Source of the DNA: Citrobacter sp.
GTDB taxonomy: Bacteria; Pseudomonadota; Gammaproteobacteria; Enterobacterales; Enterobacteriaceae
Direction of reading: 5' to 3'
Assembly (NCBI GenBank): GCA_019415335.1
Contig: DXKH01000005.1
Span: forward strand, 1 to 13,429
DNA length: 13,429 nucleotides
The notes beneath the pieces were generated by a model. The model saw only the letters and a program-made list of their open reading frames with translations. It was not told the origin of the DNA and searched no databases. The translations under genes were made by a program, and so were the position numbers. Shown in pieces: positions 1 to 13,218 of this stretch; the first letter of the stretch is position 1, and the number at the start of each line of letters is the position of its first letter.

Positions 1-70
1 GATGATCCTGACAATGAATATGGAAAGAGTTCTTACCCAGATCGATACCAATAAGCGCAATGTTTTCCAT
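1..70 (-). CDS. IS5075-like IS110-family transposase, N-terminal fragment (runs off the window)
   Basis: On the minus strand an ATG at 70-68 opens a frame reading MENIALIGIDLGKNSFHIHC, followed by about three more residues before the window edge. This matches the start of the DEDD-type transposase of IS4321/IS5075; the early aspartate in GIDLGK is the first acidic residue of the RuvC-like fold. A GGAG ribosome-binding site lies just upstream (complement of ~78-81). Only about 23 codons are visible, so integrity of the full gene cannot be judged. Confidence 0.85.
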   Translation of the reverse strand, partial: MENIALIGIDLGKNSFHIHCQDH

Positions 71-136
71 GATGGTTCTCCGAATGAAAGCCTGTCCTCA
101 GCATAGTACTGGGAAGGAGGGAGTGACCATCTCATT
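1..136 (-). mobile_element. IS5075/IS4321-like IS110-family element, end only
   Basis: The first ~136 bases are one end of an IS110-family (IS1111 subgroup) insertion sequence, recognised by the start of its transposase on the minus strand and by its position inside a Tn21-type inverted repeat. IS4321 and IS5075 are known to insert at a specific place in these 38-bp repeats. Sequence matching the transposon repeat resumes at about 137, so the junction is placed at 136/137 with an uncertainty of a few bases. The rest of the element lies to the left of the window. No target duplication is visible, which is normal for this subgroup. Confidence 0.85.
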
Positions 137-153
137 AAATAAAGCACGTTAAG
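137..153. repeat. Inner remnant of the left inverted repeat (IRL) of the Tn3-family transposon
   Basis: AAATAAAGCACGTTAAG matches the inner end of the right repeat (complement of 7811-7827) at 16 of 17 positions, in inverted orientation. The outer ~21 bp of a 38-bp Tn21-type repeat are not here, because the bases to the left belong to the IS110-family element. The single mismatch (T at 149 where the right repeat has C) falls in the conserved ACGCTAAG block that the transposase contacts in this family. Confidence 0.8.
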
Positions 154-218
154 CCCATTGCAGACTCTAGATATTGACGAGTACGTCGGGTTTTCTCTTG
201 TTTGAGTTGCCTCTTGTG

Positions 219-246
219 GTAAGATAGTAATCAATTACTATCTTAC
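219..246. promoter_or_regulatory. Perfect 28-bp palindrome, likely operator of the TetR-family repressor
   Basis: GTAAGATAGTAAT (219-231) and ATTACTATCTTAC (234-246) are exact inverted repeats separated by CA. The site ends just before the AAGGAG ribosome-binding site (247-252). It overlaps a weak -10-like TAGTAA (225-230), which sits 17 bp after a -35-like TTGAGT (202-207). A palindrome of this length next to a tetR-type gene is the usual autoregulatory layout. Binding by this protein is inferred. Confidence 0.8.
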
Positions 247-257
247 AAGGAGTGCTC

Positions 258-866
258 GTGGACACCCATCCAAAGCATCTGCCGGCCGATGAACGTCGTG
301 CCGTAACTGTCGAGTCCGTCGTGGCGCTTGCCGGTTCACAAAACCCAAGCGAGATAACCACTGCGGCTATCGCTAAACACATGAACTTGACCCAGGGTGC
401 GCTGTTTCGGCACTTCCCGAACAAGGAAGCCATTTGGCAGGCGGTCATGGAGTGGGTAGCAGAGCGCCTATTAGCCAGAATCGATCGATCCGCACAAGGA
501 ATCGAGTCGCCCTTGGCAGCCATGGAGGCGATGTTCATGAGTCATATCGAATTCGTAGCTGAGCACCCAGGCGTGCCAAGAATGATGTTTGGTGAGCTTC
601 AGCGTGCCGAATCGACACCGGCCAAGCGCATGGTGCAAACCTTGATTCAGCGCTACAGCGAACGTTTGCATCGTCTCATCGAGAAAGGCAAGGCCAGCGG
701 CGAGTTGTCTCCCTCGCTTGACAACGAGGCGGCGGCAACGCTGTTCATTGGCACGATCCAGGGCTTGGTCATGCAATCGCTGTTGGCGGGTGATGTGGGA
801 CGTATGCACCGCGATGCGCCGCGCGTCTTTGCAATTTATCGGCGTGGCATAAGGAGTGCGCAATGA
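258..866 (+). CDS. TetR/AcrR-family transcriptional repressor of the efflux operon
   Basis: This 202-residue protein has the TetR/AcrR build: an N-terminal helix-turn-helix (about residues 33-57, with ITTAAIAKHMNLTQGALFRH followed by FPNKEAIW) and a helical C-terminal ligand and dimer domain. GTG at 258 is preferred because AAGGAG (247-252) lies 5 bases upstream; an in-frame GTG at 252 would overlap that site. It is the first gene of the operon and its stop overlaps the next start (ATGA at 863-866). The palindrome at 219-246 is its probable operator, so the operon is expected to be self-repressed and induced by a ligand. The ligand cannot be read from the sequence. Confidence 0.9.
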   Translation: MDTHPKHLPADERRAVTVESVVALAGSQNPSEITTAAIAKHMNLTQGALFRHFPNKEAIWQAVMEWVAERLLARIDRSAQGIESPLAAMEAMFMSHIEFVAEHPGVPRMMFGELQRAESTPAKRMVQTLIQRYSERLHRLIEKGKASGELSPSLDNEAAATLFIGTIQGLVMQSLLAGDVGRMHRDAPRVFAIYRRGIRSAQ

Positions 867-2014
867 AAAAGTTACCCTTGCAAGGCCGCACCCTGGCACT
901 GCTTGCCGTCATCATTCCTTTGCTGGTGCTTTTTATTTATGTCGGTCTGCGATCAGGGCCGCTCGCCCCGGTCGCTGTGACGGTGGCAAGCGTGGAATCA
1001 CGGGCTATCACACCGGCGCTGTTCGGCATCGGCACGGTGGAGGCGCGCTACACCTACAAGATCGGGCCGACGTTTGCCGGGCGCGTCAAACGCCTGGAGG
1101 TGCATGTAGGCGACCAGGTCAAGGCCGGACAGGTGCTCGGCGAGATGGAGCCGGTCGACCTTGATGATCGGGTGCGCTCACAGGAGTCTGTATTCAAGCG
1201 GGCGGAAGCGGCTTTGCGCGAGGCAGAAGCCCGGCAAGCCTACGCGCAAACCCAGGCGCGCCGCTATGAGCAATTGTTTGCGGTGCGCTCGACCAGCGAG
1301 GAAATCGTCACCACCAAGCGGCAGGAACTGCAGATCGCCGATGCCGCCCTATCCGCCGCTCGGGAAGATATTGCCCGGGCACGCTCCGACCGCGAAGCAC
1401 TCGTCGCGCAGCGGAGCAATCTGCGCCTGATCGCGCCGGTCGACGGTGTAGTCGCCGTGCGCGATGCCGATCCCGGCACGACCATCGTCGCGGGCCAGGC
1501 CGTGGTGGAAGTGATCGACCCCAAGAGTTTGTGGATCAATGTGCGCTTCGACCAGATCAGCGCATCGGGGCTGGCTGGGGGGCTGCCGGCTCATATCGTC
1601 CTGCGTTCGCGTGGTGGCCAGACCTTGAAAGGTCGCGTGCTGCGGGTGGAACCCAAGGCCGACGCGGTAACCGAGGAAACGCTTGCCAAGGTGACATTCG
1701 ATAACAAACCAGAACCTTTGCCACCAGTGGGTGAACTGGCCGAAGTCACGGTTGACTTGCCGGCGCTCCCGGCCGCTCCACTGATCCCCAACGCTGCCGT
1801 CCAGCGTGAAGGCGATAAAGTTGGTGTCTGGCAAATCGTGGATGGTGATCTGCATTTCTCCCCGGTCAAGCTCGGCACTTCCGACCTCAATGGTTACGTG
1901 CAGGTGCGCGAAGGGCTCAAGAATGGGGACCAGGTTGTGACCTATAGCGAAAAGGCACTGACGGCGCGCAGCCGCATCCATGTGGTCGAGCATATCCCGG
2001 GAGTTTCACGATGA
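863..2014 (+). CDS. HlyD-family periplasmic adaptor (membrane fusion) protein of an ABC exporter
   Basis: 383 residues. A short cytoplasmic start is followed by one membrane anchor (about residues 10-29, LALLAVIIPLLVLFIYVGL). A lipoyl-like half-motif follows (about 65-98, with GRVKRLEVHVGDQVKAGQVL), then an alpha-helical hairpin rich in Ala, Arg, Gln and Glu (about 103-185), then the second lipoyl half (LRLIAPVDGVVAVRDADPG) and beta-barrel and membrane-proximal segments. This is the order seen in MacA/DevB/HlyD adaptors, which bridge an inner-membrane transporter and an outer-membrane channel. It overlaps the regulator upstream and the permease downstream by 4 bases each, so translation is probably coupled. 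The adjacent permease and ATPase indicate an ABC rather than an RND partner. Confidence 0.9.
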   Translation: MKKLPLQGRTLALLAVIIPLLVLFIYVGLRSGPLAPVAVTVASVESRAITPALFGIGTVEARYTYKIGPTFAGRVKRLEVHVGDQVKAGQVLGEMEPVDLDDRVRSQESVFKRAEAALREAEARQAYAQTQARRYEQLFAVRSTSEEIVTTKRQELQIADAALSAAREDIARARSDREALVAQRSNLRLIAPVDGVVAVRDADPGTTIVAGQAVVEVIDPKSLWINVRFDQISASGLAGGLPAHIVLRSRGGQTLKGRVLRVEPKADAVTEETLAKVTFDNKPEPLPPVGELAEVTVDLPALPAAPLIPNAAVQREGDKVGVWQIVDGDLHFSPVKLGTSDLNGYVQVREGLKNGDQVVTYSEKALTARSRIHVVEHIPGVSR

Positions 2015-3216
2015 TCAGCCTGGCCGGCCGCGACATTCTCCATGCCTGGGGGAAATTCGTCTTCACCGGCATCGGTCTGGGTCTGCTGATCGGCGTCACC
2101 CTAGTCATGGCTGGGGTGTACCGAGGCATGGTGGACGACGGCAAGGCGTTGCTCGACAACAGTGGCGCTGACCTTTGGGTGGTGCAAAAGGATACTCTGG
2201 GTCCTTATGCGGAGTCGTCCAGCCTCAACGATGACGTGTATCGCGCCATTCTCGCCATGCCGGGAGTCTCACAGGCAGCGAACGCGACCTACCTGACCAT
2301 GCAGGTACGCAAGGGCGAGAGTGATGTACGCACCATGGTGGTCGGCATCGCGCCCGGTGCGTTGGGGGCTACACCCGGATGGCCTCCTTATCTCGTCGCT
2401 GGACGCCAGATCACGCGCGGTCACTACGAGGCTGTGGCCGACATCGCCACCGGCTTCAAACTGGGAGATCGTCTTACCATTCGCCGCAATCATTACACCG
2501 TCGTGGGGCTGACACGGCGTATGGTGTCGTCCAGCGGCGACCCGATGGTATTCATTCCGCTCAAAGATGCCCAGGAGGCCCAGTTCCTCAAGGACAACGA
2601 TGCCATCTGGCAAAGCCGGCGTCGCACCGAAGCCAACCCGGTCTTCAATCGACCCGGTGATCCAGGTTTGCTGGATGCCGTGATTGCTTCACAGAGCAGC
2701 AACGCGTTCGTCAATGCCGTGCTGGTCACTCTGAAACCTGGTCATGCGCCGGACGAGGTTGCCGAATCCATCCAGCGCTGGAAGCGTTTGACGGTCTACA
2801 CCCGGGCACAGATGGAAGACATCCTCGTCGGCAAGCTGATCGCCACCTCGGCCAAGCAGATCGGCATGTTCCTTGTGATTCTGGCCATCGTTAGCGCGGC
2901 CATCGTTGCCTTCATCATCTATTCGCTGACGATGGACAAAATCCGTGAGATCGCGGTGTTGAAGCTCATCGGCACACGCAACCGAACCATCGCCGCGATG
3001 ATCATGCAGCAGGCGCTCGCCCTGGGCGTGATTGGCTTCGTGGTCGGCAAGATCACAGCCACCTTTTCAGCACCGGCTTTTCCAAAATATGTCCTGCTCA
3101 CGCCAATGGATTCTGTCGCCGGTTTTTTTGCCGTGCTCGTGATCTGCGTTCTAGCTAGCCTCGTCGCCATTCGCATGGCACTCAAGGTCGATCCGGCCGA
3201 AGCCATTGGAGGTTGA
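2011..3216 (+). CDS. MacB/DevC-like ABC transporter permease (FtsX domain)
   Basis: 401 residues with the MacB/LolC/DevC topology: one membrane segment near the N-terminus (about 16-36), a large periplasmic domain (about 37-280), then three more segments (about 285-307, 327-346 and 370-390). The FtsX-type coupling stretch REIAVLKLIGTRNRTI follows the second segment, and the protein ends in KVDPAEAIGG, a typical C-terminus for the family. There is no fused ATPase domain; that subunit is the next gene, which starts 1 base after this stop. MacB-type permeases work by mechanotransmission on periplasmic or membrane substrates rather than by cytoplasm-to-outside transport. The substrate is unknown. 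Confidence 0.9.
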   Translation: MISLAGRDILHAWGKFVFTGIGLGLLIGVTLVMAGVYRGMVDDGKALLDNSGADLWVVQKDTLGPYAESSSLNDDVYRAILAMPGVSQAANATYLTMQVRKGESDVRTMVVGIAPGALGATPGWPPYLVAGRQITRGHYEAVADIATGFKLGDRLTIRRNHYTVVGLTRRMVSSSGDPMVFIPLKDAQEAQFLKDNDAIWQSRRRTEANPVFNRPGDPGLLDAVIASQSSNAFVNAVLVTLKPGHAPDEVAESIQRWKRLTVYTRAQMEDILVGKLIATSAKQIGMFLVILAIVSAAIVAFIIYSLTMDKIREIAVLKLIGTRNRTIAAMIMQQALALGVIGFVVGKITATFSAPAFPKYVLLTPMDSVAGFFAVLVICVLASLVAIRMALKVDPAEAIGG

Positions 3217-3217
3217 G

Positions 3218-3928
3218 ATGAGTGGCAAAGGGATACACATCGAAAGTTTAAGCAAGCGGTATGGCGATGGTGACACCGCTGTCTTTGCCTTGAGAGACGT
3301 GAATATGCATGTTGCGCCTGGTGAAGTGGTGGGACTGATCGGCCCTTCCGGGTCCGGCAAGAGCACGCTGCTCAAGTGTCTGGGTGCGGTGATCGAACCG
3401 ACCGCCGGTCGCATGACGCTGGGCGATGAAGTGATCTACGCCGATGGCTGGAAAGTCCGCGACCTGCGCGCCTTACGGCGTGACAAGATCGGTTTCGTTT
3501 TCCAGGCGCCGTACCTGATTCCGTTTCTCGATGTCACCGACAACGTGGCGCTGCTGCCGATGCTTGCAGGCGTCGCGAATGGAGAGTCACGCGCGAAGGC
3601 ACTGGAATTGCTCACAGCGCTTGATGTGCAACACCGAGCTCGCGCAATGCCCTCGCAACTCTCCGGTGGCGAGCAGCAACGGGTCGCCATCGCGCGCGGA
3701 CTGGTCAATCGTCCGCCGGTGATCCTGGCCGATGAACCCACTGCGCCGCTGGATTCCGAGCGCGCCATGGCTGTAATCCGCATCCTCAACGACATGGCCC
3801 GGAAGTTCGAGACCGCCATCATCGTCGTCACCCATGACGAAAAGATCATCCCCACATTCAAGCGCATCTACCACATCCGCGACGGCGTGACCCATGAGGA
3901 AGCTGGCGAAGGGCGGGAGTTCGAATGA
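3218..3928 (+). CDS. ABC transporter ATP-binding subunit (MacB/LolD/DevA-like)
   Basis: 236 residues with all ABC ATPase motifs: Walker A GPSGSGKST (residues 42-50), a Q-loop in FVFQAPY, signature LSGGEQQR, Walker B VILADEP followed by a D-loop in APLDSE, and the switch histidine in VVTHDEK. The D-loop region reads DEPTAPLDSE, with Pro where Ala or Gly-Asn is usual. The C-terminal pattern (THDEKIIPTFKRIYHIRDG) is closest to DevA-type subunits from memory. ATG at 3218 is chosen because GGAGG (3208-3212) lies 5 bases upstream; an in-frame TTG at 3206 has no such support. It energises the permease encoded immediately before it. Confidence 0.93.
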   Translation: MSGKGIHIESLSKRYGDGDTAVFALRDVNMHVAPGEVVGLIGPSGSGKSTLLKCLGAVIEPTAGRMTLGDEVIYADGWKVRDLRALRRDKIGFVFQAPYLIPFLDVTDNVALLPMLAGVANGESRAKALELLTALDVQHRARAMPSQLSGGEQQRVAIARGLVNRPPVILADEPTAPLDSERAMAVIRILNDMARKFETAIIVVTHDEKIIPTFKRIYHIRDGVTHEEAGEGREFE

Positions 3929-3956
3929 GAGAACGATTGAATTACAGGAGAATTTC

Positions 3957-4430
3957 ATGACCCACCGCAAACACAGCCACGCATTTGGAACTATCACCCT
4001 GACCGTTACGGCCTGCCTGCTTTTATGGGGTTTTCAGTTGCCAGCTTGGGCTGGTGACGCTACCCAGGTTGAGCCACTGGCGCTACGCAAGATCATGCAG
4101 GAACTCGGGCGCAACATGCAGGCTATTACCGGTGCGATTTCGCAGGAGGAATGGGTTCAGGTCGTTCAGCTCGCCCCAAAAGTTGCTGCACACCCCGAGC
4201 CACCGCTTACTGAAAAAATGCGCATCCTTGCTTACCTCGGCGCTGATGCGACCAAGTTCAGAAACTTTGACGCGCAGACTCACGAGGCGGCGCTGGCCAT
4301 GAAGCTGGCTGCTGCGAGCAGCGACGGCAAGGCGGTGATCCAATCATTCGCCCACGTGCAGGAAAGCTGCTTGGGCTGCCACCAAGCTTTCCGTAAACCT
4401 TTCGTGGAGCATTTTTATGGAGCACGCTAA
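3957..4430 (+). CDS. Secreted class II (c'-type) c-type cytochrome encoded within the efflux operon
   Basis: 157 residues. A signal peptide (positively charged start, hydrophobic stretch about 11-29) ends at AWA, predicting cleavage after residue 32. The rest is helical, with one covalent haem site CLGCH (residues 138-142) close to the C-terminus. This C-terminal haem placement and the size fit class II cytochromes (c'/c-556), four-helix bundles that act in the periplasm in electron transfer or NO binding. A Met in the first mature helix (M47 or M54) could be the distal ligand. AGGAG (3946-3950) lies 6 bases before ATG 3957; an earlier in-frame ATG at 3894 would sit inside the ATPase gene and spoil the signal peptide. 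Its role beside an exporter is not known. Confidence 0.85.
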   Translation: MTHRKHSHAFGTITLTVTACLLLWGFQLPAWAGDATQVEPLALRKIMQELGRNMQAITGAISQEEWVQVVQLAPKVAAHPEPPLTEKMRILAYLGADATKFRNFDAQTHEAALAMKLAAASSDGKAVIQSFAHVQESCLGCHQAFRKPFVEHFYGAR

Positions 4431-5904
4431 AACATGCCAGCGCCCCATCAGCCTCGAAAGACGGCTTGCGGCAACTTACCTGGTAGCTGGTCTGGTCACC
4501 GCCGGTCTGGCCGGCTGCGCCGCCGGCCCTGATTTTCAGCGTCCCACCGCACCCGATGTGGCTCGCTACACTGCAACACCGGTAGCTGATAGAACCGTGT
4601 CCGCTCCCACGCAGTTTGGCGAAACACAACGTCTAGTCGAAGGGCTTCCGATCGAAACGCAATGGTGGCAAAGCTTGGGTTCATCCGCACTCGACGGACT
4701 GATAAACGAAGCTTTCCATGTCAGCCCGACGCTGGCGAGCATCAGCGCCAATTTGCGACAGGCGCAGGAGCTTCTTGCCGCACAGGCGGGCTCGACGCAA
4801 TATCCACAGGTAGATGTCGCACTGGGATCTCAGCGCCAGCAAATGAGTCCCAGTAGCCAAGGGTTGAGCGGAGACGCACGTCAATTCAGCCTCTACAACG
4901 CCAGCGTTGGCGTGCATTACAACCTCGATCTGGCTGGCGGCAACCGGCGCGCACTCGAAGCCTTGGCTGCTCGCGCCGACTACCGTCGCTTCGAACTGAA
5001 TGCTGCGCGCCTGGCCCTTGCCGGCAACATGGCAACCGCTGCCATTACCCGAGCACGCCTCGCCGCGCAACTAGAAGCCACTACTGCCATTTTGCGCGTG
5101 CAGGATGAGCAACTGCGCCTAGCCCATGAACGCGTGCGTATCGGTCAGGCCTCACCTGATGAAGCGTTGAGCCTACAAGCTCAGGCGGAGCAAACGCGGG
5201 CAGAACTGCCTGCGCTGCGTAAACAACTGCAACAAACCGAACATCTACTGGCGGTGCTAGCCGGTCGTGCCCCAGGCACGGGTGGCATCCCGGCCTTCAC
5301 TCTGGCCGATTTCACTCTACCCGTCGAGATGCCGCTCGTCGTGCCCTCAGAACTGGTGCGCCGCCGACCGGATATCCAGGCGTCAGAGGCGCTGTTGCAT
5401 GCGGCCAATGCAGACTATGGTGTGGCTGTCGCCAAGCTCTACCCACAGATCAACCTGAGCGCCAACCTTGGTTCTCAGGCGCTGACCACCGGTGCCCTGT
5501 TCGGTGGTGGCTCGGCAGTGTGGGGCCTGGTTGCGCAGCTCACCCAGCCTCTTTTTAATCCAGGGCTACCCGCTGAAAAAAGAGCGGCGCTCGCCGCTTT
5601 TGATGCCGCCGTAGCCAATTACCAGAGCGTCGTATTGGAGTCTTTGCGTAACGTCGCCGACACCCTGCGCGCGGTGGAAAGCGATGCACAAACTTTGACT
5701 GCCCTCGCTGCCGCTGATATGGCTGCACAGGCCTCCTTGCAGTCGGTCGAGCGGCAATACCGGCTGGGCGCGGCCAGCTACCTGCAACTGCTCATCGCGC
5801 AGCAACAGGCACAGTCAATCCGGATCAATATGGTTGCGATCCAGGCACAACGCCTAGTCGATAGTGTTGCTTTATATCAGGCCCTGGGAGGTGGTGTCAG
5901 TTAA
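4417..5904 (+). CDS. NodT/TolC-like outer-membrane efflux lipoprotein
   Basis: 495 residues. The N-terminus carries a lipobox (LAGC, Cys34) followed by AAGPDFQRP, the usual start of mature NodT/OprM-type channel proteins. Two internally homologous OEP domains follow. Recognisable family stretches include LDGLINEAF near the start of the first repeat, YNLDLAGGNRRALEA, PSELVRRRPDIQASEALLHA, and YRLGAASYLQLLIAQQQA near the end. It should form the trimeric outer-membrane duct joined to the HlyD adaptor. The start overlaps the cytochrome gene by 14 bases, with GGAG (4406-4409) 7 bases upstream of ATG. It is the last gene of the operon; no intrinsic terminator was seen directly after it. Confidence 0.93.
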   Translation: MEHAKTCQRPISLERRLAATYLVAGLVTAGLAGCAAGPDFQRPTAPDVARYTATPVADRTVSAPTQFGETQRLVEGLPIETQWWQSLGSSALDGLINEAFHVSPTLASISANLRQAQELLAAQAGSTQYPQVDVALGSQRQQMSPSSQGLSGDARQFSLYNASVGVHYNLDLAGGNRRALEALAARADYRRFELNAARLALAGNMATAAITRARLAAQLEATTAILRVQDEQLRLAHERVRIGQASPDEALSLQAQAEQTRAELPALRKQLQQTEHLLAVLAGRAPGTGGIPAFTLADFTLPVEMPLVVPSELVRRRPDIQASEALLHAANADYGVAVAKLYPQINLSANLGSQALTTGALFGGGSAVWGLVAQLTQPLFNPGLPAEKRAALAAFDAAVANYQSVVLESLRNVADTLRAVESDAQTLTALAAADMAAQASLQSVERQYRLGAASYLQLLIAQQQAQSIRINMVAIQAQRLVDSVALYQALGGGVS

Positions 5905-6034: not shown

Positions 6035-6592
6035 TTGCAAGGTCAACGTATCGGCTACATTCGCGTCAGCAGCTTCGACCAGAATCCTGATCGACAACTG
6101 GAACAAATAGAAGTCGGCAAGGTATTCACCGATAAGGCTTCAGGCAAGGACACACAACGTCCCGAACTTGAAAGGCTGCTGGCCTTCGTCCGCGAGGGCG
6201 ACACCGTGGTGGTGCATAGCATGGACAGGTTGGCACGCAACCTTGATGACCTGCGCCGCATCGTCCAAGGGCTGACACAACGGGGCGTGCGCATGGAGTT
6301 CGTCAAAGAAGGGCTAACGTTCACCGGCGAGGACTCACCGATGGCCAATCTGATGCTGTCGGTCATGGGAGCCTTTGCTGAGTTCGAGCGCGCTCTGATC
6401 CGCGAACGTCAGCGCGAGGGAATCGTGCTGGCTAAGCAGCGCGGGGCCTACCGGGGACGAAAGAAATCGCTGAACAGCGAACAAATTGCCGAGTTGAAAC
6501 GGCGAGTTGCGGCAGGCGAGCAGAAAACCTTGGTGGCCCGTGACTTCGGCATCAGCCGCGAAACCTTGTACCAGTACCTGCGGGAAGACTGA
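6035..6592 (+). CDS. tnpR: TnpR serine resolvase of the Tn3-family transposon
   Basis: 185 residues, the usual length for Tn21/Tn1721-group resolvases. The N-terminal catalytic domain has YIRVSSFDQNPDRQ with the nucleophile Ser12, then DKASGKD, VVVHSMDRLARNLDDLR, and SPMANLMLSVMGAFAEFER. The C-terminal DNA-binding helix-turn-helix is in KTLVARDFGISRETLYQYLR. It resolves the cointegrate made during replicative transposition by recombining two res sites. The TTG at 6035 is taken as the start: GGAGG (6026-6030) lies 4 bases upstream, and relatives begin at the equivalent residue; an in-frame ATG at 5975 would add 20 residues not seen in the family. All catalytic residues appear present. Confidence 0.93.
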   Translation: MQGQRIGYIRVSSFDQNPDRQLEQIEVGKVFTDKASGKDTQRPELERLLAFVREGDTVVVHSMDRLARNLDDLRRIVQGLTQRGVRMEFVKEGLTFTGEDSPMANLMLSVMGAFAEFERALIRERQREGIVLAKQRGAYRGRKKSLNSEQIAELKRRVAAGEQKTLVARDFGISRETLYQYLRED

Positions 6593-6594
6593 CC

Positions 6595-7815
6595 ATGCCA
6601 CGCCGCTCAATCCTGTCCGCCACCGAGCGCGAAAGTCTGCTGACACTGCCAGATGCCAAAGACGAACTGATACGGCACTACACGTTCAACGAAACCGACC
6701 TGTCGGTGATCCGTCAGCGTCGCGGCGCCGCGAATCGATTGGGCTTCGCCGTGCAGCTTTGCTACTTGCGATTCCCTGGCATCTTCTTGGGCGTCGATGA
6801 TCCTCCATTTCTGCCCCTGCTGCGCATGGTGGCCGCACAACTCAAGGTGCCGGTGGGAAGCTGGAACCATTACGGCCAGCGCGAGCAGACACGGCGGGAG
6901 CACTTGGTCGAGCTGCAAACGGTGTTTGGATTCAAGCCCTTCACCATGAGTCATTACCGGCAAGCCGTGCATACATTGACCGAACTGGCCTTGCAAACAG
7001 ACAAAGGCATTGTGCTGGCCAGCACCCTTGTTGAAAACCTGCGGCGGCAGAGCATCATCCTACCCGCCATGAATGCCATCGAGCGCGCAAGCGCCGAGGC
7101 CATTACCCGTGCCAACCGAAGCATCCATGCGGCATTGGCCGATTCCTTGATACCTGTCCATCGCCAGTGCCTGGACGAACTGCTCAAGCGCAAGGATGGT
7201 AGCAAAATGACGTGGCTAGCGTGGCTGCGCCAATCGCCCGCCAAGCCAAACTCGCGCCACATGCTTGAACACATCGAACGCCTCAAAGCCTGGCAGGCGC
7301 TTGACCTACCTGCTGGCATCGAACGGCAGGTACACCAAAACCGCTTGCTCAAGATCGCCCGCGAAGGCGGCCAGATGACGCCCGCCGACCTGGCCAAGTT
7401 CGAGTCGCAGCGGCGTTACGCCACCTTGGTAGCACTGGCCATCGAGGGCATGGCCACCGTCACTGATGAAATCATCGACCTTCACGACCGTATCATCGGC
7501 AAGCTGTTCAATGCGGCCAAGAACAAGCATCAACAGCAGTTCCAGGCTTCCGGCAAGGCGATCAACGACAAGGTGCGGATGTATGGGCGCATCGAGCGCA
7601 CGCTGTTCATTCTGGATTGGCTGCAAAGCGTGGAGCTGCGCCGCCGCGTCTATGCGGGGCTGAATAAGGGCGAGGCGCTGGACGACACGTTGCTGCAATA
7701 TCTGTCCCCGCTGGGGTGGGAGCATATCAACCTGACCGGCGATTACCTATGGCGCAGCAGTGCCAAGGTCGGTGCGGGGAAGTTCAGGCCATTGCGACCG
7801 CTGCCACCGGCTTAG
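6595..7815 (+). pseudogene. tnpA: Tn3-family transposase with two large in-frame internal deletions
   Basis: The frame is open for 406 codons, whereas Tn21/Tn501/Tn1721-group transposases are close to 1000 residues. Residues 1-333 follow the normal N-terminal half, starting MPRRSILSATERESL and running through the DNA-binding region to KAINDKVRMYGRI. At about codon 333 the sequence jumps to ERTLFILDWLQSVELRRRV, normally near the C-terminus. A second jump follows NKGEA (about residue 362) to LDDTLLQYLSPLGWEHI, and the normal tail KFRPLRPLPPA closes the protein. The first jump removes the RNase H-like region with the catalytic aspartates; the second removes ~55 residues, probably with the catalytic Glu. 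The comparison is from memory of family sequences. It starts 2 bases after tnpR and cannot be an active transposase, but could still bind the inverted repeats. Confidence 0.88.
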
Positions 7816-7848
7816 CGTGCTTTATTTTCCATTTTCTGAGACGACCCC
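7811..7848. repeat. Right inverted repeat (IRR) of the Tn3-family transposon, 38 bp
   Basis: On the complement the repeat begins GGGGTCGTCTCAG and ends GCACGCTAAG, the Tn21-type 38-bp terminus. A further C at 7849 could be part of the repeat or of the target duplication. The last codons of tnpA run into the inner end of the repeat, as is usual in this group. Confidence 0.9.
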
Positions 7849-7972
7849 CTTATGGCAGCACTTTAAATTGAGTCTCATACAGTATCTGTTTTCTTTCTCT
7901 TCATCTCTCATGACCTGCTGCCCACTTACAGACTCCAGGGTAAAGCAAAAAATTCTCCACCGGTGAGCAGAG

Positions 7973-8025
7973 TATATTGCATATGCCAGTTTATGAGTGT
8001 ATATATAGCATATGCTAATAAGGAG
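7973..8025 (+). promoter_or_regulatory. Twin GCATATGC boxes and ribosome-binding site upstream of the DUF134 gene
   Basis: Two copies of the palindrome GCATATGC occur, at 7979-7986 and at 8008-8015. The second lies in a longer perfect palindrome, TAGCATATGCTA (8006-8017). Each is preceded by GTATAT. Their centres are 29 bp apart, close to three helical turns. AAGGAG (8020-8025) then precedes the start codon by 5 bases. The layout suggests an operator for the regulator just downstream, probably overlapping its promoter. The assignment is an inference. Confidence 0.5.
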
Positions 8026-8030
8026 CCTTC

Positions 8031-8351
8031 ATGCCAAGACCCAGAATTCCCCGTAACATCTGTGGCCGCCCTGCGGATACCTGTTTTAAGCCCAATGCGC
8101 GACCGATGAGCCAGCTTGAACATGTTCATTTAAAAGAAGATGAGTTTGAAGCGTTACGGCTGGTCGATTTACTGGGCATGCAACAGCAGGAAGCGGCTGT
8201 TGCAATGGGGGTTTCAAGGCAGACACTGGCCAATGTCCTGAAAGCAGCCCGTTTTAAGGTTGTGGACTGTCTCACTCAGGGCAAGGCCTTAATAATGCAC
8301 TCTGAAAGGGAAGGAGTTACACAAGATGATCACAGCCATTCCAGTGAATGA
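8031..8351 (+). CDS. DUF134-family helix-turn-helix regulator
   Basis: 106 residues. The start MPRPRIPRNICGRPADTCFKP is the DUF134 signature, followed by a sigma-70 region 4-like helix-turn-helix (about residues 35-74, with EFEALRLVDLLGMQQQEAAV and GVSRQTLANVLKAARFKV). DUF134 proteins are predicted DNA-binding proteins that commonly neighbour NifX/NifB-C-type iron-molybdenum cofactor proteins, as here. N-terminal Cys11 and Cys18 could sense metal or redox state, and the C-terminus ends in a short His-rich DDHSHSSE. Its stop lies 25 bases inside the next gene, so the two genes overlap and are probably translated in a coupled manner. The palindromes upstream suggest autoregulation. Confidence 0.85.
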   Translation: MPRPRIPRNICGRPADTCFKPNARPMSQLEHVHLKEDEFEALRLVDLLGMQQQEAAVAMGVSRQTLANVLKAARFKVVDCLTQGKALIMHSEREGVTQDDHSHSSE

Positions 8352-8787
8352 CGACCGGGTAGCAAATCATTTTACCAAAGCGAGTCACCTTGTCCTGGTG
8401 GATGAGCGCGGTGTGGAGCTCAGCCGGACAGAAAATCCCGCGCTGGGCGCAGATTGTTCAGGTAAACGGAAGCTGGTTGACCTGCTGGTTCAACAGCAAG
8501 TCAGCCGCGTTGTGGTCCGTAACATCGGGGAACGGATGCTGGGTAAATTACTGGGGCATCAGATCGCGGTGTACCAGACTGACTGTGGTCGTCGTTTGTT
8601 CACTGAACTGTGTGATCCGGATACCCGTGTTCTGACTGAACTGAATAAGCCGGAGCAGGGACGCCAGTCCTTTCATCATGAGGCGAAAGGGAAAAAATGC
8701 TGTCACTCTGACGGGAACACAGCAGAAAATGCGTGCCAGGGTGGGCGTCAGCATCATCACGGAAACGGGCGCTGTTGCCATTCATGA
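8326..8787 (+). CDS. NifX/NifB-C-type (dinitrogenase iron-molybdenum cofactor-like) protein with a His/Cys-rich tail
   Basis: 153 residues. Residues 1-107 have the Nitro_FeMo-Co fold seen in NifX, NafY and the NifB C-terminus: AIPVNDDRVANHFTKASHLV, then DLLVQQQVSRVVVRNIGERM and LLGHQIAVYQTDCG. Single-domain members outside nitrogen fixation are thought to bind metal or iron-sulfur clusters, but their roles are poorly known; no nif genes are present here. The tail (117-153) is unusual, with 5 Cys and 7 His in 37 residues, including CCHS twice and HHH. AAGGAG (8311-8316) lies 9 bases before ATG. The gene overlaps the DUF134 gene, a common pairing. A metal storage, delivery or sensing role is plausible but not shown. 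Confidence 0.85.
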   Translation: MITAIPVNDDRVANHFTKASHLVLVDERGVELSRTENPALGADCSGKRKLVDLLVQQQVSRVVVRNIGERMLGKLLGHQIAVYQTDCGRRLFTELCDPDTRVLTELNKPEQGRQSFHHEAKGKKCCHSDGNTAENACQGGRQHHHGNGRCCHS

Positions 8788-8850
8788 GTTTATTTCATCA
8801 CGGGCGGTGATTTTTATCAGACCCGTATTGTGTATAAACCAGGAGCCGGA

Positions 8851-8937
8851 ATGTGTGGAGGAGGCAGTAATGATGCCGGGGGAGCCCCTCAGCTGACTGA
8901 ATTCCGGATGCCTCCCGTCAGTACAACCGGACGCTGA
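8851..8937 (+). CDS. Possible 28-residue Cys/Gly-rich small protein
   Basis: An ATG at 8851 is preceded by AGGAG (8841-8845) at 5 bases and opens a 28-codon frame. It starts MCGGGSNDAGGAPQ, continues TEFRMPPVST and ends with TGA at 8935-8937. It sits between the NifX-like and thioesterase genes on the same strand, 10 bases before the next start, and the good ribosome-binding site supports translation. I do not recognise the peptide. The next gene has only a weak site of its own, so this frame could serve to couple its translation. Confidence 0.45.
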   Translation: MCGGGSNDAGGAPQLTEFRMPPVSTTGR

Positions 8938-8947
8938 GCAGAAACAG

Positions 8948-9385
8948 ATGAATTGTTATCTTGATGCCAGAAAGGCCCATACCTGTTGTATGGTCTGTAG
9001 TTCCCGCGACAACAACCCTGATACGGTGAACTTAATGTTTTCAGAGCACCCGGATGGCTCTGTATGTGCGGACTACACGGCCAATCACAGGCATCAGGGG
9101 TATACGGGTCTTTTACATGGCGGAATGACGAGTACCCTGCTGGATGCAGCAATGACTCATTGTTTGTTCATGCAGGGTGTGCAAGCCCTGACGGCTGAAC
9201 TGACGGTAAGATTCATTTCACCCGTTTGTACCGGAGACAAACTGATGGTATGTGCCAGACTGCTTGGGCAACGCAGGGGGATTTACCTGCTTGAAGCATG
9301 GCTGACAAAAGGACAGCAGACAGTGGCACGTGCCACGGCGAAATTCATTGTTCCGTCGCAGGATATTGCTCTGGCGCATCGCTAG
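8948..9385 (+). CDS. PaaI/YdiI-like hotdog-fold thioesterase
   Basis: 145 residues with the single hotdog domain of PaaI-type acyl-CoA thioesterases: GLLHGGMTSTLLDAAM (residues 54-69), with the HGG loop and Asp66 in the place of the catalytic acid, then LTAELTVRFISPVCTGD and a C-terminal strand ARATAKFIV. Such enzymes hydrolyse thioester bonds of acyl-CoA or related thiols in the cytoplasm. Its N-terminus has a Cys cluster (HTCCMVCSS, Cys13, 14 and 17), similar to the CxxC seen in some family members. Only a weak ribosome-binding site is visible before ATG 8948, so translation may depend on the small frame just upstream. Its neighbours suggest a link to thiol or CoA chemistry rather than phenylacetate degradation. 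Confidence 0.85.
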   Translation: MNCYLDARKAHTCCMVCSSRDNNPDTVNLMFSEHPDGSVCADYTANHRHQGYTGLLHGGMTSTLLDAAMTHCLFMQGVQALTAELTVRFISPVCTGDKLMVCARLLGQRRGIYLLEAWLTKGQQTVARATAKFIVPSQDIALAHR

Positions 9386-9459
9386 TGTGACAGACGACAG
9401 GTGTACCTGGTTATTATAAAAATTTGAGGCGTGTTTTGCTCAGACCGGAAAGAATAATC

Positions 9460-9494
9460 GCATATCGTATATTCCACTGAAACCGTGTAAGAGG
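9460..9494 (+). promoter_or_regulatory. AT-rich upstream region of the dps-like gene with a GCATAT box
   Basis: GCATATCGTATATT (9460-9473) resembles the GCATATGC boxes upstream of the DUF134 gene in its core (6 of 8 bases). GAGG (9491-9494) lies 5 bases before the start codon. No convincing -35/-10 pair could be fixed, so a separate promoter here is only suggested, by the ~115-base gap and the AT-rich composition. Confidence 0.3.
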
Positions 9495-9499
9495 TAGTT

Positions 9500-9976
9500 A
9501 TGAGTAAACAAATCATTGATATTGGTATTGCTGAATCATCCCGGGTGGAGATTGCAGACGGCCTGTCCCGGCTTCTTGCTGACACCTATACCCTGTATAT
9601 AAAAACACATTACTATCACTGGAATGTAACTGGCCCCATGTTTAACAGCTTACATTTAATGTTTGAAAATCAATACAATGAGCTGGCCACTGCCGTTGAT
9701 GATATCGCTGAACGTATACGCTCGCTCGGATGCTTCGCGCCCGGCACATATCATGAATTTTCACGTTTAACAGCGGTTAATGAAGATAAGGATATTCCGG
9801 CAGCAAAAAACATGATTGAAAATCTTGTCCAGGGCCAGGAGACCGTGGTTAAAACTGCACGCTCCCTGTTCCCGCTCGTTAATAATGCGAATGATGAAGC
9901 CACAGCAGATCTGCTTACACAACGTATCCAGTTACATGAGAAAACTGCCTGGATGTTGCGTAGCCTGCTTGAATAA
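9500..9976 (+). CDS. dps: Dps-family DNA-protection mini-ferritin
   Basis: 158 residues, typical for Dps. The ferroxidase signature is present: [14 protein letters not shown] (His40 and Trp41), LHLMFE (His52 and Glu56), and the partner-subunit acidic set in [11 protein letters not shown] (Asp67/68 and Glu71). The protein should assemble as a 12-subunit shell that oxidises Fe(II), using hydrogen peroxide, and stores iron. The N-terminal extension is short, with only one Lys ([10 protein letters not shown]), so DNA binding may be weak. GAGG lies 5 bases upstream. The neighbouring metal- and thiol-related genes fit an oxidative-stress role. A strong terminator follows. Confidence 0.93.
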
Positions 9977-9992
9977 TGTCACCACGTGGCAG

Positions 9993-10069
9993 CAGAAAAA
10001 ACGGTTTGTCAGCCACAGGCTATTACTGACAGTGCAGAATCATCCGTGTTCCTGTGGCTGTTTTTTCTG
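9993..10069 (+). terminator. Intrinsic terminator after the dps-like gene, possibly bidirectional
   Basis: CAGCCACAGG (10010-10019) pairs perfectly with CCTGTGGCTG (10051-10060), followed by a run of six T (10061-10066). The matching A-run (9996-10001) lies upstream, so CAGAAAAAA and TTTTTTCTG could extend the stem across a bulge and terminate from either side. The 31-base loop is long for a simple terminator. Confidence 0.75.
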
Positions 10070-10280
10070 ACCGTCACAGTATTAAACACCATTGAATCAG
10101 TGGGTTAATCAGTGAATGCGTGAACGAGAAATACAGTCCGTGACGGGCATCATCGGCTGGTATATCCGGACCACTGTTGTTTTCCCGTTAAGGTATCGCA
10201 GGTTCCGGTCTGGCATTTCACAGCCTGAACAGGGTTAATGATGCACGGATAAAACGGTTTACGGGGAAAGCAGGATCATA
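10067..10280. other. Intergenic region between the dps terminator and the arsR-type gene
   Basis: No supported gene was found. The longest reading is a 35-codon minus-strand frame (10110-10217) without a ribosome-binding site or recognisable product. No clear intrinsic terminator was found for the leftward arsR-type gene. It may be decayed sequence. Confidence 0.5.
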
Positions 10281-10631
10281 TTATTCGTTGTTATGGCTTC
10301 CTTTACCGGTGCCTGCCTGCGGGCAGTAGAGATCATATAAGGTATTTAACAACGTCATGATACGGTTATCCTCAATACGGTAATATACCATTTTACCTGC
10401 CCGTCGGGTCTCGACCAGCTTCAGGCGGCGCATTACACCCAGCTGCTGGGACAGGGTCGGCTGAGTGATACCGACCGCCGCTTCCAGCCCGGCCACATTC
10501 GCTTCCCCCAGGCTTAACTGACACATCAACAGCAACCGGTCGCTGTTGGCCAGTCCCCGTAAGACATCTGCTGCCCTCAGGGCCGCATTCTTCATATCTG
10601 TCTGACGTTTTGTGTCTTCATTCATGAGCAT
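10281..10631 (-). CDS. ArsR-family repressor of the persulfide-sensing BigR/SqrR/YgaV type
   Basis: 116 residues with the winged helix-turn-helix of the ArsR/SmtB family: RGLANSDRLLLMCQLSLGEA, then the recognition helix in GITQPTLSQQLGVMRRLKLV and the wing in RRAGKMVYYRIED. It has just two cysteines, Cys37 (in LLLMCQL) and Cys103 (in LYDLYCPQ), 66 residues apart. This matches the reactive pair of BigR, SqrR and YgaV, which form a disulfide or polysulfide bridge with sulfane sulfur and leave DNA. The metal-binding motif of ArsR or SmtB is absent. ATG at 10631-10629 gives the full length; an ATG two codons later is equally possible, and neither has a strong ribosome-binding site. It is divergent from the CoA-disulfide reductase gene, its likely target. 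Confidence 0.88.
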   Translation of the reverse strand: MLMNEDTKRQTDMKNAALRAADVLRGLANSDRLLLMCQLSLGEANVAGLEAAVGITQPTLSQQLGVMRRLKLVETRRAGKMVYYRIEDNRIMTLLNTLYDLYCPQAGTGKGSHNNE

Positions 10632-10643
10632 TGCTGATTTCTC

Positions 10644-10680
10644 ATACTATGTGTTTTTATATAATATAATTTAGTATACT
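10644..10680. promoter_or_regulatory. Divergent promoter/operator between the arsR-type and CoA-disulfide reductase genes
   Basis: The region is very AT-rich, as in known BigR/YgaV operators. It holds rightward -10-like elements TATAAT (10665-10670) and TATACT (10675-10680), the palindrome AGTATACT (10673-10680), and an inverted pair ATACTA (10644-10649) / TAGTAT (10672-10677). Which -10 is used cannot be decided here. Confidence 0.55.
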
Positions 10681-10724
10681 GACGGTATCGTAATTTTGCC
10701 ATCGTGTTCGTCAGGTCTGCAGCG

Positions 10725-10776
10725 TCCTGCCGGCCCGGGGAAACGATTATATCTGGCAGGCATTTTTGCCCCGGGT
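10725..10776 (+). promoter_or_regulatory. Structured 5' leader of the CoA-disulfide reductase gene
   Basis: Two complementary pairs interleave. CCTGCC (10726-10731) pairs with GGCAGG (10755-10760), and CCCGGGG (10734-10740) pairs with CCCCGGG (10769-10775). They can form either alternative hairpins or a pseudoknot. The last segment ends 8 bases before the GAGG ribosome-binding site (10784-10787), so the choice could affect translation. No known riboswitch class was recognised. Confidence 0.35.
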
Positions 10777-10792
10777 GAACAGAGAGGATGTA

Positions 10793-12451
10793 ATGAAAAT
10801 AGTGATTGTTGGTGGTGTTGCCGGCGGGGCATCCGCTGCAGCCAGAGCTCGTCGGTTATCAGAGGATGTCAGTATTGTTGTGTTTGAACGGGGAAGCGAT
10901 GTCTCTTTCGCCAACTGTGGATTACCTTATCATATAGGCGGAAAAATTCCTTTAAGGCAGTCACTGATTCTGAAAACCCCGGAGGATTTTAAATCCCGCT
11001 TTAACATAGACGTCCGTATCTGTCATGAAGTGACGTCAGTGGATCCGGTTAATAAAACGGTGACGGTTAAAAATCTGACCTCAGGGGAGGTCTATAGCGA
11101 AGAATGGGATCGTCTGCTCCTCAGTACCGGCGCCGCTCCGGTTGTCCCTCCTTTGCCCGGGCTACAGGAAGAGGGTGTCTTTACGCTGCGAAATCTTACT
11201 GACATGGATGCTATCCTGGGGTGGATTGAGCAACATCACGTAGCTCACACCACGCTTGTCGGGGGGGGATTTATCGGACTTGAAGTGATGGAGGCTCTGA
11301 GCGAACGGGGGATCAGTGTGACCCTGCTGGAGATGGGGGAACAGGTTATGGCTCCGGTTGATCCTGAAATGGCATCTGCCCTGCATCAGGAAATCCGGAG
11401 TCATGGCGTGGATCTGCGTCTCAGAACGGCGCTCACCGAGGTACTGCGGACAGAGACGGGATTCCGCGTTGCACTGTCTGAGGGTGGGTTTCTGCAGACC
11501 GACATGGTTATTCTCGCCATCGGGGTAAAACCTGAGAACAGCCTTGCCACAGGAGCCGGGCTCGCAGTGGGTAAACGGGGAGGCATAAGCGTCAATGCCT
11601 GTATGCAGACCAGTATCCCTGACATCTACGCCGTGGGGGATGCCGTTGAAACTCCAGACTTTGTCTTTCAGGAACCCGCTAATTTTCCTCTGGCAGGGCC
11701 CGCCAACCGCCAGGGACGCATTGCTGCTGATAACATGCTAGATCGTCACAGCCTTTACCATGGCAGTCAGGGGACATCCATTTGTAAGGTATTTTCGCTG
11801 AGTATTGGCAGCGTCGGTGCGAATGAAAAGCAGCTGAAAGTTCATGGCACCCGATACGAGAAGGTTTACGTCCATGCCGCTGATCATGCCGGTTACTACC
11901 CGGGGGCAACGATGATCAGTCTGAAACTGCTGTTCAGCCCCGATACCGGTAAAATTCTCGGGGCTCAGGCATCAGGGAAAAAAGGGGTTGATAAACGCAT
12001 CGATGTCCTGTCTGTCGCACAGCGCGCGGGGCTTACCGTCAACGATCTCGAACATCTTGAGCTGACTTATGCTCCACCTTTTAACAGTGCAAGGGACGTC
12101 GTTAACCAGGCTGGTATGGTGGCGACAAATGTAATGAAAGGAGATACGGTCATATGTCATGTCAGCGATGTGTTACAACGGGAACCGGGCAGTTATTGTT
12201 TACTTGATATTCGCTCTCCTGCCGAACTGAAACAATTTGGCGAATATCCTGACGCGCTATCCATTCCACTGGATTCCCTGCGGGAGAATCTTGAAAAAGT
12301 GCCTAAAGATAAAGAGATTTTTATAGGGTGCCAGAGTGGCCTGCGCGGGCATGTGGCATACCGTATTCTTCAGGCCCACGGCTTCAGGACATATAATCTG
12401 AGTGGTGGCTTTATAACCTGGCAGGCGGTAACGGAGTCAATAAGTAAATAA
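10793..12451 (+). CDS. CoA-disulfide reductase fused to a rhodanese domain (likely NAD(P)H-dependent CoA/persulfide reductase)
   Basis: 552 residues. The N-terminal FAD-binding motif is KIVIVGGVAGGASAAARARR. The active-site Cys42 lies in SFANCGLPYHIGG, the single-cysteine motif of CoA-disulfide reductases. A second dinucleotide motif for NAD(P)H is TLVGGGFIGLEVMEAL, and the second FAD contact is in IPDIYAVGDAVE. A dimerisation domain follows. From about 455 there is a rhodanese domain with active Cys513 in FIGCQSGLRGH. Fusions of this type reduce CoA and other persulfides or polysulfides. ATG at 10793 has GAGG 5 bases upstream; an upstream in-frame TTG (10766) is not supported. The divergent BigR-like repressor suggests induction by sulfane sulfur. 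No TusA or DsrE domain is attached. Confidence 0.92.
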   Translation: MKIVIVGGVAGGASAAARARRLSEDVSIVVFERGSDVSFANCGLPYHIGGKIPLRQSLILKTPEDFKSRFNIDVRICHEVTSVDPVNKTVTVKNLTSGEVYSEEWDRLLLSTGAAPVVPPLPGLQEEGVFTLRNLTDMDAILGWIEQHHVAHTTLVGGGFIGLEVMEALSERGISVTLLEMGEQVMAPVDPEMASALHQEIRSHGVDLRLRTALTEVLRTETGFRVALSEGGFLQTDMVILAIGVKPENSLATGAGLAVGKRGGISVNACMQTSIPDIYAVGDAVETPDFVFQEPANFPLAGPANRQGRIAADNMLDRHSLYHGSQGTSICKVFSLSIGSVGANEKQLKVHGTRYEKVYVHAADHAGYYPGATMISLKLLFSPDTGKILGAQASGKKGVDKRIDVLSVAQRAGLTVNDLEHLELTYAPPFNSARDVVNQAGMVATNVMKGDTVICHVSDVLQREPGSYCLLDIRSPAELKQFGEYPDALSIPLDSLRENLEKVPKDKEIFIGCQSGLRGHVAYRILQAHGFRTYNLSGGFITWQAVTESISK

Positions 12452-12458
12452 GAGATGA

Positions 12459-12478
12459 GGTGCCATACACATGGCACC
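12459..12478 (+). terminator. Hairpin after the CoA-disulfide reductase gene
   Basis: GGTGCCAT (12459-12466) and ATGGCACC (12471-12478) form a perfect 8-bp stem with loop ACAC, 7 bases after the stop codon. There is no T-run behind it, so it may stabilise the transcript or aid a factor-dependent stop rather than act as a classic intrinsic terminator. Confidence 0.45.
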
Positions 12479-12572
12479 CTGAATCGCCACAGGTTTAACA
12501 GTGAAGTGGTCTGCTGAATTTGTTCACCTGAACAGAGGTGTGGACTGACCCCGCACCGTTATAAGGACAGTT

Positions 12573-12629
12573 ATGAAAAAAATAACTTTTCAGATCAGGC
12601 ATATAATGTCAGATTCATGGTCACTATAG
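12573..12629 (+). pseudogene. Possible gene-start remnant or 18-residue peptide
   Basis: An AAGG-containing site (TAAGGAC, about 12562-12568) precedes ATG 12573. It opens an 18-codon frame, MKKITFQIRHIMSDSWSL, that ends at TAG 12627-12629. It looks like the 5' end of a gene whose remainder has been lost or replaced by the following segment, but a chance frame is equally possible. No family was recognised. Confidence 0.25.
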
Positions 12630-12696
12630 GAATGGCAAGGACTGGATTTTCATTTTGCAGCCATCAGGCTGCTTAGTTCAGAGATAGGTCTGTGTA

Positions 12697-13161: not shown

Positions 13162-13218
13162 CAACCCCGTGGTGTTGCAGGAGACAAATAACGTCGAAAT
13201 CATAAAGAAAAGAATTCA

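Follow-up and report, generated by a model that had tools for sequence, protein, structure and literature searches.

A predicted tripartite ABC exporter operon with an apparently optional class II cytochrome c gene, carried by a Tn3-family transposon in Citrobacter sp.

The locus described here raises the question of why a class II cytochrome c gene should lie within an ABC exporter operon on mobile DNA, and whether cytochrome and exporter share a function. The stretch analysed, referred to as the window, comprises 13,429 nucleotides of Citrobacter sp. contig DXKH01000005.1. Six genes, all open, are located at window 258–5904 on the forward strand: a TetR-family repressor, SlmA-like by sequence (258–866; PF00440/PF16925, NCBIfam SlmA model at 79.6 bits with the cut-off of 120 not reached), a periplasmic adaptor of the HlyD/RND-mfp type (863–2014; TIGR01730 at 179 bits, above cut-off, and PF16576), a permease with MacB_PCD and FtsX domains (2011–3216; PF12704 and PF02687, both above the Pfam cut-offs), a LolD-type ATPase of the LolD/MacB/DevA kind (3218–3928; PF00005, with the LolD, DevA and MacB models each matching below their own cut-offs), the cytochrome (3957–4430) and a NodT-type outer-membrane channel with a start that is lipoprotein-like by eye (4417–5904; TIGR01845 at 359 bits, above cut-off, and PF02321 twice). 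Overlaps of 4 nt join TetR to HlyD and HlyD to the FtsX-type gene, which is followed at 1 nt by the ATPase gene; the latter is separated by 28 nt from the cytochrome gene, whose overlap with the channel gene is 14 nt. Annotation of a Pelobacter plasmid gives the same gene boundaries, as does that of a Shewanella plasmid except for a channel shorter by one codon. With six open genes, and with adaptor, channel and cytochrome passing their family thresholds, the original prediction of a complete envelope-spanning exporter on mobile DNA was borne out; the parts list supports a complete tripartite exporter of the MacB superfamily, for which ATP-driven export is predicted.

The permease has four predicted membrane helices, and its AlphaFold model (pLDDT 78) comprises predicted long helices at residues 13–51, 265–309, 324–352 and 365–391 around a mixed domain, with HrtB, LolCDE and MacB as nearest folds, matched over the whole length; a PDB look-up with the single permease sequence found nothing. 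With MacAB-TolC the operon shares a permease of the FtsX/MacB_PCD type, including its four membrane helices and periplasmic domain, an HlyD-type adaptor, an outer-membrane channel and the full-length structural match, whereas here the ATPase is encoded by its own gene and not fused to the permease, a TetR regulator and a c-type cytochrome are added, and scores stay far under the MacB (ATPase, 173 of 966 bits) and MacA (adaptor, 74 of 342 bits) cut-offs. HrtBA, the Gram-positive haem exporter, likewise has an FtsX-type permease separate from a LolD-type ATPase, and HrtB was the nearest solved fold by VIA-align; the present operon differs in adding an adaptor and an outer-membrane channel. In the glycolipid exporter DevBCA-HgdD, adaptor, permease and ATPase are encoded by separate genes of a single operon and a TolC-type channel is used, according to an excerpt of PMC8277102. 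These features are shared, but channel and cytochrome lie within the operon here, and all three Dev cut-offs were missed (DevA 182 of 296, DevB 20 of 129, DevC 41.5 of 290 bits). A defence system was rejected as a candidate, PADLOC giving no match for permease, adaptor or cytochrome.

The operon is a passenger of a Tn3-family transposon, of which the window holds a deletion derivative. Downstream of the channel gene follow tnpR, encoding a serine resolvase (6035–6592, forward strand; PF00239, PF02796), and a tnpA remnant of 406 codons with an internal deletion (6595–7815, forward strand; NF033527 in three stretches, 394 bits versus a cut-off of 500), which lacks about 584 codons relative to the intact 990-codon homologue in locus L001. 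The right 38-bp inverted repeat is intact (7811–7848, reverse strand). Of the left repeat, the inner 17 bp (137–153, forward strand) match exactly the inner part of the complete left repeat found in L001, L005, L009 and others; the outer part is replaced by the end of an inserted IS110-type element of the IS5075/IS4321 kind (1–136, reverse strand), window 1–260 being 99.2% identical to L120 7822–8081, a stretch in which position 7891 (window 70) is the annotated end of the IS5075 transposase gene. Complete copies (L005, L009, L015) have 38-bp inverted repeats of the Tn3 family, TnpA and TnpR, with 5-bp target duplications TTATT (L009) and TAGCA (L015), and a complete relative of the transposon measures 9,485 bp. 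The predicted mobility was thus confirmed for the element, while the window copy departs from the picture of a mobile operon by its deleted tnpA and its interrupted left repeat. The transposon ends presumably resemble those of Tn21 and Tn5053; Tn3-family transposons with Tn21-like ends share the 38-bp ends, TnpA, TnpR and 5-bp duplications, but differ from the window copy in its exporter passenger and its loss of most of tnpA.

A diverged copy of the six genes was found inside a probable Tn402/Tn5053-type element in four genomes. Loci L076–L079 have a common 5' boundary with different flanks, the second lineage being mapped at that end only, and the end sequence was taken to be that of the Tn402/Tn5053 family. 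TniQ, TniB, the C-terminus of a Mu-type transposase and a resolvase lie beside the operon in L077, where the channel ORF is interrupted; these genes are shared with Tn402/Tn5053-type elements, from which the second element differs in its exporter passenger. Judged by gene content, the six-gene set is carried by two unrelated transposon families. Among 72,556 plasmid records the operon was matched by 193, with at least 80% of it covered in 45, and 120 of the 193 were typed as conjugative, truncated copies included; hosts were Citrobacter, Klebsiella, Enterobacter, E. coli and others, and window 180–4000 was matched in 22 of 5,426 E. coli genomes, numbers that speak against a chance arrangement. 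Their occurrence on many plasmids and in two transposon families implies present or past selection for the exporter genes. In the commonest plasmid form, the haem site and the channel stretch are missing, so that the exporter may be wholly or partly idle in such copies. In most plasmid copies the haem site has apparently been lost to an IS110 element.

The cytochrome matched PF01322 over residues 68–146 (29.7 bits versus a cut-off of 26.5), with a single, C-terminal CXXCH at residues 138–142 and a start that resembles a signal peptide by eye. The PF01322 match, the C-terminal CXXCH and a helical, low-confidence model (pLDDT 67) are shared with the class II cytochromes c (c' and c556), from which it differs as a subfamily of its own, in which HPxPP and HFYG stretches and a Met of the first helix are conserved, and by its setting in an exporter operon. 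The alignment consisted of the window protein and 106 of the 120 best matches (416 in all); 11 rows without CXXCH and 3 outside 140–185 residues were dropped, so that CXXCH is conserved there by choice. Of the 107 rows, 106 have Met47 and 105 have Met54. By position Met47 was assumed to correspond to the ligand of c556-type proteins as opposed to the distal positions of c', pointing to a probable His/Met electron-carrier haem. NO binding, which had been proposed, is therefore less likely, and an NO-binding cytochrome c' is weakened as a candidate. A fold search with the low-confidence model yielded unspecific helical matches, the CnrX/NccX metal sensors among them, and among solved structures the nearest relatives bear the names cytochrome c, class II cytochrome c or cytochrome c' (best E 2.8e-5). 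In 299 genomes of the phylum, no close relative was found outside its own genome, matches in 30 other genomes being distant (at most 34% identity). Among transposon copies the cytochrome gene showed a pS of 0.005 and a pN/pS of 0.61, too little variation to show selection. Haem maturation appears feasible in this host, whose genome gave four PF01578 matches, two of them adjacent and of CcmC and CcmF size.

The association of cytochrome and exporter was followed across the best 80 of at least 564 loci, obtained with one close query. Fourteen transposon-type copies (L004–L010, L012–L017, L063) and L011 were set aside (12 assigned by script; L011, L013 and L017 moved by hand), as were 7 loci that were too short. 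Of the 58 decidable chromosomal relatives, a set that does not give a population frequency, 20 had the cytochrome, 2 had remnants and 36 had no tblastn match (E 1e-5) within 2.3 to about 6.3 kb downstream, a search by which a diverged or distant cytochrome would be missed. The haem motif was open in 18 of the 20, being broken or without CXXCH in L052 and L072, and in L043 the cytochrome is reduced to its last codons. An even sample of 398 genomes contained 7 relatives, with a CXXCH ORF in the short fetched flanks of none. Natural hosts include Ottowia thiooxydans and Aromatoleum buckelii, the latter with no cytochrome seen at its locus. Cytochrome and channel genes adjoin or overlap in all 12 chromosomal loci that have both (spacing about −34 to +56 nt, from match ends; n = 9 if four copies of one element are counted once), even where other genes separate them from the ATPase gene, and the ATPase-to-cytochrome distance varies from 35 to 5,075 nt across the 20 loci. 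Divergence of the cytochrome correlated with that of the permease at r 0.38, a value reached in 21 of 2,000 permutations and below those of HlyD (0.81), TetR (0.62) and the ATPase (0.59). Parsimony on a tree of the 80 permeases, weak in that 13 of 71 inner branches were well supported, gave about 14–17 changes of cytochrome presence, at least 4–5 of them forced by well-supported branches; for testing cytochrome against channel in sister pairs, only 4 pairs were usable. The cytochrome looks like a real but optional helper at the channel end of the pump. In line with a shared function, as originally proposed, are the overlap or abutment in 12 of 12 loci and the six-gene set in the second transposon family, but relatives regularly without the cytochrome, named beforehand as an argument against that function if their phenotype were the same, are found in 36 of 58 cases and apparently in most plasmid copies, where the haem site is gone.

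Regulation and surroundings of the operon were considered with respect to its role. Immediately upstream, at window 219–246, lies a putative TetR operator, GTAAGATAGTAAT-CA-ATTACTATCTTAC, the sole perfect 13+2+13 palindrome in the window. Of 30 relatives, 26 have its core pattern upstream of the operon, against 2 matches of the reversed control pattern across the same 30 genomes. Four additional sites occurred in these genomes, three of them beside TetR paralogues (62%, 69% and 73%). In two of these three cases HlyD and ABC or channel genes are neighbours as well, so that the TetR protein is probably an efflux regulator. The flank survey covered 125 of 191 candidate ORFs downstream and 114 of 143 upstream, hand-picked mostly by distance and size; in either set, none of the 25 most frequent families had more than four members, response-regulator domains being found 2 plus 4 times. 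A four-gene core is retained amid diverse flanks. A PDB look-up with the small protein after the ATPase in L059 found nothing.

Taken as a whole, the locus is read as a self-contained tripartite ABC efflux module under TetR repression, belonging to the MacB (type VII) superfamily, riding as a transposon passenger and with the cytochrome as optional accessory, a reading given an even chance of being right. The TetR protein would repress by binding the palindrome that immediately precedes its gene; an inducer would free it, and the entire operon would be transcribed. Permease and ATPase would then drive a small amphiphilic compound off the periplasmic side, from where the HlyD adaptor and then the NodT channel would carry it out. 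The cytochrome, produced with the channel as a separate periplasmic His/Met electron carrier, would work at the channel end, where its most likely target is the redox state of either the cargo or a partner in the periplasm; pumping as such would not need it. Cytochrome and transport are tied by gene order alone.

Different cargo would be implied by a Gram-negative haem or porphyrin exporter like HrtBA, lifting a tetrapyrrole from the inner membrane through adaptor and channel, with the cytochrome as haem-loaded partner or as a sign of haem stress. HrtB came first with the narrower profile A4 (E 0.023), but with the wider profile A5 MacB (9.1e-7) and HrtB (1.6e-6) tie, MacB leading, and Foldseek placed MacB first by E-value. 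HrtBA is under TetR control in some hosts, and the haem ligand of HrtB is Glu219 in the second membrane helix (PMC11442138, excerpt); the equivalent position, four residues beyond the aligned block, falls by ungapped extension on Ser280, with no Glu there, and haem genes were absent from the most frequent neighbour families of the 125 downstream and 114 upstream ORFs. Such an exporter is considered improbable. The same low rank is given to an exporter of lipid or lipopolysaccharide-linked envelope material in the manner of DevBCA, in which case the cytochrome would simply travel with the channel gene. Among NCBIfam models, DevC fits the permease best, and genes of the lipid A deacylase family LpxR lie between the ATPase gene and the cytochrome-channel pair in some loci (e.g. 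L039). LpxR, however, accounts for 4 of 125 scanned downstream ORFs and occurs in few loci, alongside unrelated beta-CASP and LOG genes, the Dev cut-offs were missed, and TetR control and plasmid spread suit a toxic substrate better.

As for the cytochrome itself, it may be an independent respiratory or stress protein unrelated to export, retained by the transposon because its gene lies between two selected genes. The frequent changes of presence, the residual codons in L043 and the apparent loss of the haem site in most plasmid copies are consistent with this, but its constant place beside the channel gene, its retention in two transposon families and the conserved Met47 make it rather unlikely. 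At the opposite end, the operon could be the first tripartite exporter to have its own electron-transfer cytochrome, paired to the outer-membrane channel and controlling whether a redox-active or tetrapyrrole cargo is oxidised or reduced on entering that channel, a reading regarded as a long shot.

For the preferred reading of an efflux module with an accessory cytochrome, the identity of the substrate would explain why the operon recurs as a transposon passenger. No description of this transposon or operon, or of a cytochrome in an efflux operon, was found among the titles and abstract beginnings of the papers listed from open-licence PMC. Whether Gram-negative bacteria have haem efflux pumps is an open question according to an excerpt of a 2024 review (PMC11442138), and the permease offers a concrete candidate to test or exclude. 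A cytochrome in an efflux operon would couple electron transfer to export; if the redox-coupled reading were true, the exporter would be both mobile and redox-coupled and, with haem as its cargo, would be the missing Gram-negative counterpart of HrtBA.

Six co-directional genes at 258–5904 encode a TetR regulator, an HlyD adaptor, an FtsX/MacB_PCD permease, a LolD-type ATPase, a class II cytochrome c and a NodT channel, which bears out the original prediction of an exporter operon that includes a cytochrome. The genes overlap by 4 nt (TetR/HlyD and HlyD/permease) or are separated by 1 nt (permease/ATPase) and 28 nt (ATPase/cytochrome), and the predicted overlap of the cytochrome gene with the channel gene amounts to 14 nt. 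A perfect 28-bp palindrome, unique in its form within the window, was located at 219–246, just 5′ of the TetR gene. Its core precedes the operon in 26 of 30 relatives, and the pattern was matched in 27 of the 30 genomes, against 2 matches for the reversed control pattern. Four pattern sites were found elsewhere in these genomes: three beside TetR paralogues (69% with HlyD and a double ABC ATPase in the relative L161, 73% with channel and HlyD in L163, 62% in L134) and one, possibly a chance match, flanked by an ArsR and an OsmC gene (L162). This distribution of sites fits an efflux regulator.

Downstream of the operon follow tnpR (6035–6592), a tnpA remnant (6595–7815) and the intact 38-bp right end (7811–7848) of a Tn3-family transposon. 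About 584 codons are missing from tnpA, which has 990 codons on a Pelobacter plasmid (L001), and the left end is broken up by IS110-type DNA, window 1–260 sharing 99.2% identity with a segment of a Citrobacter plasmid in which an IS5075 gene ends; with both defects, this copy could be mobilised only with help. Complete elements, running from 38-bp left to 38-bp right end, were mapped in Ottowia (L005), Pollutimonas (L009) and Acidovorax (L015), as well as on the Pelobacter plasmid and a Shewanella plasmid (L002). The Ottowia element has a length of 9,485 bp, computed from the mapped end positions, with TATAGG at both flanks; 5-bp duplications flank those of Pollutimonas (TTATT) and Acidovorax (TAGCA). 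Adjoining the window copy, a plasmid island (8031–13161) carries genes for DUF134, NifB/NifX-like, PaaI thioesterase, Dps, ArsR-type regulator, FAD-dependent oxidoreductase and isoprenylcysteine methyltransferase-like proteins; some part of window 7900–13400 was matched in 4,728 plasmid records, 156 of them over at least 80%.

In the relative L004 the passenger genes are 99–100% identical, yet tnpR (81%) and tnpA (52%) differ, a contrast suggestive of recombination between transposons. The passenger itself looks like a mosaic, since synonymous difference among transposon copies is about 40-fold higher in the ATPase gene (0.197) than in the cytochrome gene (0.005). A Polaromonas MAG (L018, 5248–9531) holds HlyD, permease and ATPase genes 96–99% identical to the transposon, with a TetR of only 75% and different genes downstream, suggesting recombination between mobile and chromosomal operons.

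Occurrence of the cytochrome was surveyed in the best 80 of at least 564 permease loci found with one close query, on contigs of one genome per species, with the other genes mapped; removal of 15 transposon-type copies and 7 short loci left 58 decidable loci. The cytochrome was matched in 20 and left remnants in 2; no match was obtained within the stretch covered in 36, of which 17 possess the channel. Absence of the cytochrome from relatives, named beforehand as an argument against the proposal if the phenotype stayed the same, is regular in this set (36 of 58). An open frame with CXXCH was present in 18 of the 20 (stop inside the match in L052, CXXCH absent in L072). Only the last cytochrome codons remain in L043, hence loss and not gain at this locus. 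On the weakly resolved permease tree, presence and absence require about 14–17 changes, at least 4–5 being forced by good branches. In an even phylum sample of 398 genomes, 7 besides the window's own genome encoded a permease at least 69% identical; within the short flanks covered, a CXXCH ORF occurred in none, and the channel gene directly followed the ATPase gene in 4.

Wherever a chromosomal locus holds both cytochrome and channel genes (12 of 12), their spacing, estimated from match ends, stays within about −34 to +56 nt; the ATPase-to-cytochrome distance ranged from 35 to 5,075 nt over the 20 cytochrome loci. Cytochrome divergence tracks permease divergence, less tightly than that of the core genes. 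From these comparisons we conclude that the cytochrome is a real and recurrent partner, optional to the system and linked with the channel gene. ORFs of one other small-protein family take its place after the ATPase gene in L040 (1894–2388), L059 (8984–9412) and L058 (4781–5626), the two scanned (L040, L059) giving no Pfam match. A second TetR-like protein follows the ATPase in L018 (8884–9531; no Pfam match), L039 (8898–9533) and L052 (8893–9540); on visual inspection its usual DNA-binding start appears to be missing.

PF01322 scored above cut-off in the window cytochrome, covering only residues 68–146, and the nearest solved proteins bear the names cytochrome c, class II cytochrome c or cytochrome c′. 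In an alignment of 107 rows, preselected for CXXCH, 106 retain Met47 and 105 Met54. As Met47 falls at the position of the non-ligand distal residue of c′ sequences, the protein is probably a His/Met electron carrier of the c556 kind, a point for which the AlphaFold model (pLDDT 67) has too little confidence to provide a measurement. Ccm-type genes, anticipated as necessary for haem maturation in a host, are carried by the window's own genome.

Operon matches occurred in 193 of 72,556 plasmid records (at least 80% of the operon in 45), and in E. coli window 180–4000 was matched in 22 of 5,426 genomes, 20 over at least 80%. Of 60 plasmid rows listed for this operon search, 35 extend no further than window 4353, stopping 14 bases before the CXXCH codons (4368–4382). 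By tblastn, the 80–90% identity band holds 116 of 184 plasmid records and 38 of the 60 rows listed for that search; the stretch containing the haem codons was matched in only 54 plasmid records. Given these match ends, bands and counts, most plasmid copies appear to lack the haem motif, the sequences read being L117 (a plasmid) and the similar L006 (a genome contig). The cytochrome ORF of C. freundii pCAV1321-135 runs into a foreign tail, followed by an IS110 transposase; CXXCH is absent from this ORF, Pfam gave no match to it, and the channel gene is not among the annotated genes of the stretch.

Diverged operon copies (permease 84%, cytochrome 63–64% identical to the window) were found in a Comamonadaceae MAG, Chitinilyticum, Vogesella and Giesbergeria (L076–L079, from 5007), beginning at one common boundary with different flanks in each genome. 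In L077, whose channel ORF is interrupted, the operon is followed by resolvase, TniQ, TniB and a Mu-type transposase, a part in which L078 is 97.7% identical; the stretch that L076 and L079 have in common with L077 reaches only through the resolvase. By gene content, the carrier is classed as a putative Tn402/Tn5053-type transposon with one shared boundary mapped. Boundary and transposition genes together thus indicate that the six-gene set is carried by two unrelated transposon families. None of the open-licence papers listed by the literature searches, as judged from those listings, describes the operon or transposon; its parts are of known kinds, and the combination and the double mobilisation are new to us.
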